Origin: Marmoricola sp. URHB0036
Lineage (GTDB): Bacteria; Actinomycetota; Actinomycetes; Propionibacteriales; Nocardioidaceae
NCBI RefSeq assembly: GCF_000426045.1
Contig: NZ_AUEP01000011.1
Location: forward strand, 62,001 to 126,000
Direction of reading: 5' to 3'
DNA: 64,000 nt
The position numbers and the translations under genes were made by a program. Within the stretch, counting starts at the first letter, position 1. Each line of letters starts with the position of its first letter. The notes below the pieces were generated by a model, which was not told where the DNA came from, made no database searches, and saw nothing but the letters and a program-made list of their open reading frames with translations. This document shows, piece after piece, positions 24,632-26,489 of the stretch.

Positions 24632-25162
24632 ATGACCCGCACCGATCCGCCTCTCGCAGGATCCGAGGCCGAGACCCTGACCGCCTTCCTCGACCACCAC
24701 CGCGAGACCCTGCGGCTGAAGACCGCCGGCCTCGACGCCGCCCAGCTCGATCAGCGGCTGGCGCCGTCGACGATGACGCTGGGCGGACTGCTCAAGCACC
24801 TCGCCTACGTCGAGGACTGGTGGTGCAACCAGGTCTACGCCGACAACCCGCCCCCCGAGCCGTGGGCCTCGGTCGACTGGCAGGCCGACGGTGACTGGGA
24901 CTGGCACTCCGCCGCGCAGGACTCACCCGCCCAGCTCAGGGAGCTCTACGACGAGATGGTGGCCGCCTCCGACCGGATCGTCCGCGAGGCACTCGCCCAT
25001 CCCGGAGCGATGGAGTCGCTGTCGCGTCGTACCTTCCGCTCGGACCCGTCCCGCCGGTACAACCTGCGTTGGATCCTCGTGCACCTGATCGAGGAGTACT
25101 CCCGCCACAACGGCCACGCCGACCTCCTCCGCGAGTCCATCGACGGCCAGGTGGGCGACTAG
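24632..25162 (+). CDS. DinB/DUF664-family protein
   Basis: A 176-residue four-helix-bundle protein of the DinB superfamily, which includes thiol-dependent transferases. Metal-binding His are recognisable in LLKHLAYVEDWW (about residue 52) and in HLIEEYSRHNGHADLL (about 148-160). In actinobacteria such proteins may use mycothiol, but this one is untested. ATG 24632 follows closely on the small membrane-protein gene, whose TAG stop lies inside a TAGGGT hexamer eight bases before the ATG. Confidence 0.85.
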   Translation: MTRTDPPLAGSEAETLTAFLDHHRETLRLKTAGLDAAQLDQRLAPSTMTLGGLLKHLAYVEDWWCNQVYADNPPPEPWASVDWQADGDWDWHSAAQDSPAQLRELYDEMVAASDRIVREALAHPGAMESLSRRTFRSDPSRRYNLRWILVHLIEEYSRHNGHADLLRESIDGQVGD

Positions 25163-25167
25163 CCCCG

Positions 25168-25263
25168 CGACCGGGCACTTCTGGTTGGCTGCAGTACGCC
25201 GAGCGGGGGATTTTGGTTGGCCGAAGTGCACCGACCGGGCATCTTTGGTCGGTACGACGGAGC
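25168..25263 (+). repeat. Left array: three tandem 32-base units
   Basis: Units start at 25168, 25200 and 25232, exactly 32 bases apart. Core is CGACCGGGCACTTCTGGTT, degenerate in units 2 and 3. They are inverted copies of the units at 25903-25998, and the two arrays bracket the MDMPI-type gene. Confidence 0.75.
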
Positions 25264-25271
25264 CGAGTCGC

Positions 25272-25889
25272 TCAGAGAACGGTGAAACCGTCCGGCAGAC
25301 CGCCCCGGCCGGTGGCGGCCAGCACGAGCGGACCGGCCAGCCCGTCGCCGATGGCCAGCTCGCTGACCAGACCGAGCACTGTCGCAGCCGGGAGGGCCGG
25401 GACGTCGACAGCGACGTCGATGGCGCGGCCCAGGTCCAGCGTGTGTACGACGAGCTCGAACGTGCGCGTCGGTAGATAGTCGCTGAGCCGCATCCCACCG
25501 GCGATCGTGGTGAGCAGCTCGGTGCCGTCCGTAGTCCCCACCAGCTCGAGCACCCGGGTCGCCAGCGCCGAGACGGATGACAGCGGATCCTGGCCCAGGG
25601 CGCGCCCCGCCTCCCGGCCGCGCTCGGCGACGCCTGCCCCAGTCGCTGCCATCTCCCGGGTCGCGCGGTAGTAGTCAGCAGTCGAGCCGACCGCGACGGC
25701 TTTCGCTGGTTGTGCGAGGTAGCTCTCGACCGTGACGAACGAGCGACTCGTGTGGCCGACCAGCGCGCGCACGTCCCACTCGCCGAGCCCGGGCTCCTCC
25801 CAGCGGTCACCGACGAGAGCGGCGGTGTCGACGAAGCAGGCAGAGGCCTCGGCGTACGCCAAGCGGGCGTCGTCCCAGGAAGAGGGCAT
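25272..25889 (-). CDS. Maleylpyruvate isomerase-family (MDMPI) protein
   Basis: A 205-residue DinB-fold protein of the mycothiol-dependent maleylpyruvate isomerase N-terminal family: ARLAYAEASACFVDTAALVG, then LGEWDVRALVGHTSRSF with the first metal-ligand His, and FELVVHTLDLGRAI with a second. Many members act in mycothiol-linked detoxification, but the substrate here is unknown. TAGCCT lies six bases before the ATG on the minus strand, so it is probably leaderless. The gene is enclosed by inverted 32-base repeat arrays. Confidence 0.82.
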   Translation of the reverse strand: MPSSWDDARLAYAEASACFVDTAALVGDRWEEPGLGEWDVRALVGHTSRSFVTVESYLAQPAKAVAVGSTADYYRATREMAATGAGVAERGREAGRALGQDPLSSVSALATRVLELVGTTDGTELLTTIAGGMRLSDYLPTRTFELVVHTLDLGRAIDVAVDVPALPAATVLGLVSELAIGDGLAGPLVLAATGRGGLPDGFTVL

Positions 25890-25895
25890 GTCAGG

Positions 25896-25901
25896 AGGCT
25901 A
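25896..25901 (-). promoter_or_regulatory. Putative leaderless promoter of the MDMPI gene
   Basis: Minus-strand TAGCCT, six bases, then ATG at 25889. Confidence 0.5.
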
Positions 25902-25902
25902 G

Positions 25903-25998
25903 ACGAGTCAGGTGCGACCAGAAGTGCCCGGTCGGCGTCGTACGGCCAGCCGAAAGTGCCCGGTCAGCGTCGTACGGCCAACCAAAAGTGCCCGGTCG
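25903..25998 (-). repeat. Right array: three tandem 32-base units, inverted to the left array
   Basis: Units at 25903, 25935 and 25967 share AAGTGCCCGGTC; units 2 and 3 differ at three of 32 positions, unit 1 is degenerate in its outer half. They are reverse complements of the left-array units. There is no spacer between units, so this is not a CRISPR array. Confidence 0.78.
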
Positions 25999-26003
25999 GC
26001 GAG

Positions 26004-26489
26004 CTATCGGTCAGCCAGCCACTGGACGCCGGTGCGGTGCTCGGCGCGGAGGGCCTTGGCGAGCAGGTCGGCGATGAGGCCCTCGATCTTGCCGCCGACG
26101 AGTGGGATGTTCACCTTGACGGTCAGGTTGACCGTCTCGGTGGTGCCGTTGGGGTCCTCGGTGAGCAGGGCGGTGCCGGACATCTCGCCGGGCTTGCCGG
26201 GGATGGTGACGTGGATGTTGCCCTTCTCCGGAGAGGTCCAGTCCTCCGACTGCACGATGTTGATCTCGTCGCCGACGAACTTCTTGGCGAAGCCGGGGAT
26301 GCCCGTCGCCTCCTGCACCTGGTCGATGGTCACGGTCATGCCCTGGCCGTCGCGCTCGATCTGCACCGTGTGCCGCTTGTAGCGCTGGTTCTCGCAGACC
26401 TGCTCCCGGAAGGCCGGGGTGGCGAGCATCTCGTGGACCTGCTCGATCGTGGCGCCGTCGTAGCGCAGCTCCTCGCTGACCTTCCTCAT
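26004..26489 (-). CDS. DUF2505 protein, copy 2
   Basis: A 161-residue START/SRPBCC-like protein of the DUF2505 family (EELRYDGATIEQVHEMLATP, GIPGFAKKFVGDEINIVQSE, VKVNIPLVGGKIEGLIADLL). The fold forms a hydrophobic cavity, so lipid or small-ligand binding is a reasonable inference. It is a tandem paralogue of the preceding gene, same length, and the reading frames overlap by four bases (ATGA). Confidence 0.85.
   Translation of the reverse strand: MRKVSEELRYDGATIEQVHEMLATPAFREQVCENQRYKRHTVQIERDGQGMTVTIDQVQEATGIPGFAKKFVGDEINIVQSEDWTSPEKGNIHVTIPGKPGEMSGTALLTEDPNGTTETVNLTVKVNIPLVGGKIEGLIADLLAKALRAEHRTGVQWLADR

Follow-up and report, generated by a model that had tools for sequence, protein, structure and literature searches.

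The best-known extragenic repeats of bacteria are palindromic and linked to RAYT enzymes. Convergent genes can end in intrinsic and bidirectional terminators, hairpin-forming sequences directly behind stop codons. The Sal-box/TTF-I arrays of rDNA, which serve as polar terminators and fork barriers, are oriented tandem protein sites behind a gene. To our knowledge, how transcription ends in GC-rich actinobacteria with few U-tract terminators is little understood. GTAG- and CGTC-tagged REPs are extragenic elements that lie mostly behind genes, between convergent or co-directional open reading frames (ORFs), with units that often face opposite ways and element ends that often provide a TAG stop codon; some are species-specific (PMC3733652). 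The Foldback/Galileo transposons of Drosophila (PMC3573991) have long inverted ends made of internal repeats, and their internal sequence is optional.

The window, the whole stretch of 64,000 nucleotides from Marmoricola sp. URHB0036 that was analyzed, contains a gene for an MDMPI_N-domain protein (PF11716; 25272..25889, minus strand; Pfam E value, 1.8e-9) that sits in the gap between two facing arrays and has no array of its own. The first-pass annotation had placed three period-32 units on each side of this gene, and we confirmed them. The left array (25163..25260, plus strand) comprises three 32-nt units with cores beginning at 25165, 25197, and 25229 and sense-strand unit starts at 25162, 25194, and 25226. 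Its sense is the direction of the left flanking gene, which encodes a mycothiol-S-transferase of the DinB superfamily (PF04978; 24632..25162, plus strand; E value, 2e-39) and ends in a TAG stop codon (25160-25162) that abuts the array. The right array (25909..26003, minus strand) comprises three 32-nt units in the opposite orientation, with sense-strand unit starts at 26004, 25972, and 25940. It has the sense of the right flanking DUF2505 gene (PF10698; 26004..26489, minus strand; E value, 4.3e-42), whose TAG stop codon (CTA on the plus strand, 26004-26006) abuts it in turn. The location originally given for the arrays was correct; their extent needed a small revision, as the right array reaches slightly further than had been claimed, to that CTA. 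Two right-hand units (25922-25953 and 25954-25985) do differ at only 3 of 32 positions (91% identity), and the arrays are indeed not CRISPR, with only a drifting linker of about 7 nt and no unique spacers between units. No other tandem repeat in the window scores as high in TRF as these two arrays (90 and 142, against 73 for the runner-up), and the arms face each other over 92 nt with 75% complementarity, a terminal-inverted-repeat feature. Both genes that border the left array (24632-25889), the mycothiol-S-transferase gene and the MDMPI gene, are DinB superfamily-like, and their 3' ends face each other across it. As for the leaderless promoter proposed for the enclosed gene, by reading alone TAGCCT lies six bases before the ATG and no Shine-Dalgarno sequence is seen; a sigma-70 scan of 24900-26300 found no promoter-like site.

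Such arrays are not tied to the MDMPI gene: they recur in the genome and across the genus around different genes, a search that the first-pass annotation had proposed, and the window locus is one of 15 facing pairs in its own genome. A 15-base core pattern with at most one mismatch matched that genome 44 times, compared with 16 times for a reversed control. A 28-nt sequence model built from 55 units gave at least 119 matches at E values up to 5, which is a lower bound because only 150 of 8983 candidates were scored. Besides the 15 facing pairs there was one doubtful single pair (L013), which was left out of the counts, as were the arrayless pattern matches L009, L010, and L016-L019.

Arrays usually begin at a stop codon, with the core side towards the gene, and in 14 of the 15 own pairs a stop codon lies within a few nucleotides of at least one outer end (the exception is L001). 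Genes called by a codon-based method place 6 of the 15 own pairs between convergent genes and 9 between co-directional genes; the corresponding numbers in genome G008 were 11 and 2 of 13, which gives 17 convergent, 11 co-directional, and 0 divergent contexts for both genomes together (n = 28). Both stop codons usually touch arrays at convergent pairs. At co-directional own pairs usually one stop codon does so, and the other end lies 26-114 nt before the next gene; the distances to the next gene at the two co-directional G008 pairs were 85 and 0. As a possible counterpart of the GTAG or CGTC tag of REPs, stop codons next to arrays were often TAG. Of 69 arrays, 15 had no called ORF beside them; the other 54 adjoined a stop codon that was TAG in 31 cases, versus 3 of 34 ORFs in the window. 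This TAG habit concerns outer array ends only, and other species mostly have TGA there. No common pathway was evident among 18 flanking proteins scanned, two of which had no Pfam family, and the idea of a regulon was rejected, as the flanking genes appear unrelated (tetrapyrrole methylases, molybdenum-cofactor synthesis, an Era-like GTPase, an H+-PPase, methionine synthase, phosphoglucomutase, and others). The expectation that arrays always occur as facing pairs holds for all 15 own loci but fails in Nocardioides sp. Soil805, where arrays are unpaired at 8 of 19 loci, some of them close to the end of the examined stretch, and in G017, which also has unpaired arrays.

In the sense of the neighboring gene, the own-genome consensus of the unit is CGCCGACCGGGCACTTCTGGTTGGC plus a short linker. 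Its first 13 bases, the core CGCCGA[C/G]CGGGCA, point towards the gene and are kept across species. The next 12 bases vary by species, reading TTCTGGTTGGC in the own genome, TTCTGCTC in G008, and TTCCTGgCACC in Soil805. Identity of this second half was 0.407 for the same site in two genomes, 0.421 for unrelated sites between genomes, and 0.572 for other sites of the same genome. At six sites common to two or more genomes, the second half was more alike within a genome than at the shared site in 19 of 21 comparisons. Either the sites were filled independently or all sites of one genome changed together. Neighboring units of one arm are more alike than units across arms (0.80 versus 0.73); therefore, local tandem duplication does occur.

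In a collection with one genome per species, from which records of the own genome were possibly excluded, an exact dimer pattern (two cores 32 apart) matched 54 stretches, 51 of them from Nocardioides, Marmoricola, Nocardioidaceae, or Propionibacteriales and 3 from Curtobacterium. With two mismatches allowed, the dimer was present in 20 of 21 genomes, most of which had been picked because the exact dimer had already matched, and the reversed control was present in none. Among the seven genomes that were picked as relatives, six were positive, and G002 was the sole negative. A phylum-wide sample of 396 genomes, one other family member included, yielded a match in the own genome only, and there were no dimer-pattern matches in viral contigs. 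The greater likeness of same-arm neighbors speaks for a purely local duplication, but the presence of the same core at 15 own sites and the recurrence of the dimer refute that explanation, and chance as well, with near certainty. In Curtobacterium pusillum (L065, L247, and L248), which belongs to another order of Actinomycetes, a related core occurs as composites that repeat every ~110-175 nt. Repeats of other types were seen at two places: behind the M13 peptidase gene of G002 (L194:379-700), an array site elsewhere, a longer palindromic repeat of another kind is present in two copies (GCCACGAAGTCTGCCGCTTCGCCAAG...CTTGGCGAAG...), and the spacer by DUF2505 in G011 (L110) holds three tandem copies, each ~49 nt, of the unrelated GTTTCGAGGCTCGCTGCGCTCGCACCTCAACCAGCAGGCGG.... 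We found no description of such arrays in Nocardioides in the open-access literature.

The pitch of the arrays is nearly constant. Core-to-core spacing was exactly 32 for 387 of 410 neighbors (range considered, 27-37 nt), and the compared neighbors differed by 2823 substitutions, with the highest number per base in the linker (36-48%). The search that yielded loci L041-L094 required a 32-nt spacing, and their spacings are therefore biased; in sets free of this bias the spacing was exactly 32 for 55 of 56 own neighbors, 67 of 68 in G008, and 48 of 49 in other relatives. Repeated Leaf446 loci were skipped in the spacing counts and in the first look at the centers of the facing pairs. The distance between the innermost cores of compact facing pairs clusters at about 42, 52, 63, 74, 85, and 95. 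In the first set, 43 of 48 compact centers fell no more than 1.5 nt from a multiple of 10.5 (34% expected), after a false window pair and L060, which contains N, had been dropped from the original 50; with one locus drawn per genome, the median was 12 of 13. The best period in this set was 11, not 10.5. The rule for pairs was fixed after the first look at the loci and the 1.5-nt tolerance afterwards, and nine loci added when the pair rule was set gave 7 near a multiple. Both settings were left unchanged for a later set of unused loci (G003, Soil805, pocheonensis, and endophyticus), in which 15 of 19 centers were near a multiple (32.5% expected; p 4e-5) and 10.5 was the best of eleven periods tried. 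By the same rule, 21 of the 40 non-Curtobacterium loci of the later set had no compact pair. Five Curtobacterium centers were kept apart; the distance was 62 in all five copies measured, which come from two loci and are copies of one composite. At two loci of G003 (L148 and L217), only 30 nt separate the innermost facing cores of the arrays. The phasing may be partly structural, since 63 corresponds to two whole units back to back and ~53 to 25+25+3; the classes at 74, 85, and 95 are other classes plus 32. Only 2 of 67 centers measured 54-61, with three more (54-57) under a looser rule, and this scarcity is the main point left beyond the structural explanation.

One way to account for the facing arrangement is at the level of RNA: read-through into the facing array would fold the transcript into a long hairpin, at which transcription from either side would stop, and the arrays would be expanded hairpin terminators. 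Compact pairs did fold better than shuffled sequences in five of six cases (z -4.3 to -13; the sixth, L029, -1.6), but any inverted pair of one consensus would fold so, and mirror-image units matched no better than other combinations in the own genome (G000; p 0.28) or in G008 (p 0.74). Arm-to-arm matching was found in one mixed set of seven (p 0.03). Twelve single arms folded like shuffled sequence (z -1.9 to +0.9); L001 was an exception in that both of its single arms beat shuffles (z -2.1 and -3.7). Arms that are ~1 kb apart or unpaired cannot form the hairpin at all. Among twelve array-less orthologous gene ends, two had a clear hairpin instead, one behind PGM in Leaf446 (z -4.2) and one behind the H+-PPase gene in G012 (z -2.95); 5 of the 12 had z values of ~0 or above. 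Two lone facing cores in G012 (L138) form an ordinary hairpin, and arrays may have grown from lone-core hairpins of this kind. A hairpin within the unit (CCGACC/GGUUGG) looked convincing in the window and was rejected, as the own-genome units gave no sign of covariation (79.7% of cells paired versus 79.9% when shuffled, with 1 pair changed on both sides) and the second half that would form it differs in other species. Rfam had no matches in the window and seven other array loci. The first right-hand unit of the window does contain a terminator-like site (26004-25990; a 5-bp stem plus a T-rich tail, with 0.2 expected in the window region), but an intrinsic-terminator motif is not general to the unit: stem plus T-rich tail was present in 6 of 85 own units and in 0 of 414 units of six other genomes. 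The RNA explanation also draws on the low number of predicted Rho-independent terminators in Nocardioides sp., which at 30 is named as the minimum for Actinobacteria, with Ehrlichia ruminantium having 8 (PMC2965389). On balance, the lack of arm matching in the own genome and G008, the mostly unstructured single arms, and the rarity of the terminator motif favor a function at the DNA level, and an RNA terminator appears improbable.

Arrays that act as DNA could also be the ends of a non-autonomous mobile element, similar to a MITE or a foldback element, in which the arms would be inverted ends of tandem transposase-binding sites at gene ends, sometimes with a passenger gene between them. We regard this possibility as doubtful, and likewise its corollary that the arms would be helically phased because two ends lying so close must be joined. 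The patchy presence of the arrays speaks for it. As the first-pass annotation had suggested might be the case, all 23 other genus members lack the segment 25168-25998: their DUF2505 genes have no adjoining array pair or MDMPI gene, apart from one weak doublet in L116, which is about as strong as one that occurs elsewhere in the window. The spacer by DUF2505 was read in 21 of the 23 and measured 13 nt between the two stop codons in G017, the closest genome by DUF2505 protein. When the joined flanks of 12 further own loci were searched in eight relatives, matches spanned the junction at 7 of the 12. None of the 20 relative stretches had a 32-spaced array, and five had a lone core, including a unit behind the era gene in L137; the unaligned gap was -15 to 86 nt in 17 of the 20 and 118, 154, and 1948 in the others. 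At L006, GTCACG occurs once in the relative and on both sides of the pair in the own genome, as a target duplication would, but this is the sole such case, the relatives are distant, and the motif possibly lies where two genes overlapped, the start codon being uncertain. Duplication of a CTAG or TA target, suggested by ends that are often TAG, was rejected, as relatives have native as well as changed stops and no consistent duplication. Also speaking against a mobile element, no near-identical whole copies were seen among the arrays inspected by eye, Y1 transposase (PF01797) was found in none of 13 genomes, the own included (the control was positive in 5 of 14 known genomes), no transposase was noticed among the enclosed genes that were read, some arrays are unpaired, and single arms are missing at shared sites (the PGM arm in Leaf446 and the metE arm in G003). 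The more specific proposal of the first-pass annotation, a small mobile or cassette-like unit carrying one gene between inverted arrays, is very unlikely. The absence of arrays and MDMPI gene together from this locus in other genus members and the gene-enclosing pairs of G008 (4 of 13) fit it, but as a general description it fails, with 13 of the 15 own pairs enclosing no gene and 2 enclosing one. At a site between RbpA and pgl (6-phosphogluconolactonase) common to four genomes (L004, L028, L051, and L089), the arms enclose an AbiEi-like gene or homologue in all four, split into two ORFs in G008. At two other cross-species sites, arrays persist, as one arm or both, while the enclosed gene differs or is absent: the M13-peptidase site has a compact pair in G003 and a lipoprotein-like gene between the arms in Leaf446, and the metE-PGM site encloses nothing in the own genome and an OsmC gene in G008. 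The MDMPI gene itself is sporadic (6 of 58 genomes, the own included), and none of the other five copies lies near a 32-spaced array; two have lone cores only.

The nearest known kind is the REP/BIME/REPIN elements, and on our best reading the arrays are a distinct variant. They share with GTAG- and CGTC-tagged REPs the 3' extragenic location (0 of 28 pairs divergent), opposite-facing units, species-specificity, and, at outer ends, something of the TAG habit (PMC3733652), but differ from REP/BIME/REPIN elements with RAYT in that the unit has no covarying hairpin, repeats head to tail at a 32-bp pitch, and forms 15 pairs in a genome that, like the 12 others, has no Y1 transposase. Like Foldback/Galileo transposons (PMC3573991), they have long inverted ends of internal repeats and optional internal sequence; in contrast, they are bacterial, ~0.1-1.3 kb long, and located at stop codons, single arms occur, and the enclosed genes that were read include no transposase. 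The inverted ends at 15 of 15 own loci and the empty sites in relatives (7 of 12 loci) are features of MITEs, whereas single arms occur elsewhere, and the regular enclosure of a gene that marks integrons and one-gene cassettes is absent (a gene lies within only 2 of the 15 own pairs and 4 of the 13 of G008). Arrays resemble intrinsic terminators in lying directly behind stops and, as compact pairs, in being able to fold as hairpins; unlike them, a stem with a T-rich tail is rare, most single arms are unstructured, and the arms are sometimes ~1 kb apart. The likeness to Sal-box/TTF-I arrays lies in the oriented tandem sites behind a gene, here for a putative protein, and in the proposed function, the differences being that the protein is only putative, the units are 32 bp, and the genes they follow are unrelated.

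Paired protein-binding arrays, the other possibility that the first-pass annotation had offered, fit the evidence best, the protein being putative. Our tentative explanation, which we put at somewhat below even, is that the extragenic 3'-end arrays are phased DNA-binding arrays, perhaps a polar transcription barrier read by such a protein. Each 32-bp unit would be the binding site for one sequence-specific protein. With units about three helical turns apart, the sites along an arm would share one face of the helix, as would the two arms of a compact pair. Transcription leaving a gene could then meet a polar barrier or terminator in the array behind it, and two facing arrays would insulate both sides. 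This explanation starts from a family of arrays observed at gene ends, with near-constant pitch, phased centers, patchy presence, and second halves alike within a genome; the binding protein, the polarity, the termination, and the seeding of new sites are what we infer. Counting against a barrier, the second arm of co-directional loci has no stop codon to serve. It is conceivable, though rather unlikely, that the barrier is lineage-specific, with a putative protein of species-drifting specificity reading the phased 32-bp arrays and each shift in specificity rewriting the second half throughout the genome, shared sites included.

If so, such a lineage-specific barrier would represent fast-evolving protein-site pairs in bacterial form, and it would serve to terminate or insulate transcription where there are few canonical terminators. 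A non-palindromic, helically phased family of gene-end repeats that is alike within a genome and differs from one species to another could serve as bait to isolate the putative protein that reads it. The arrays would also provide a naturally occurring case in which a binding specificity can be watched as it changes together with all of its sites.
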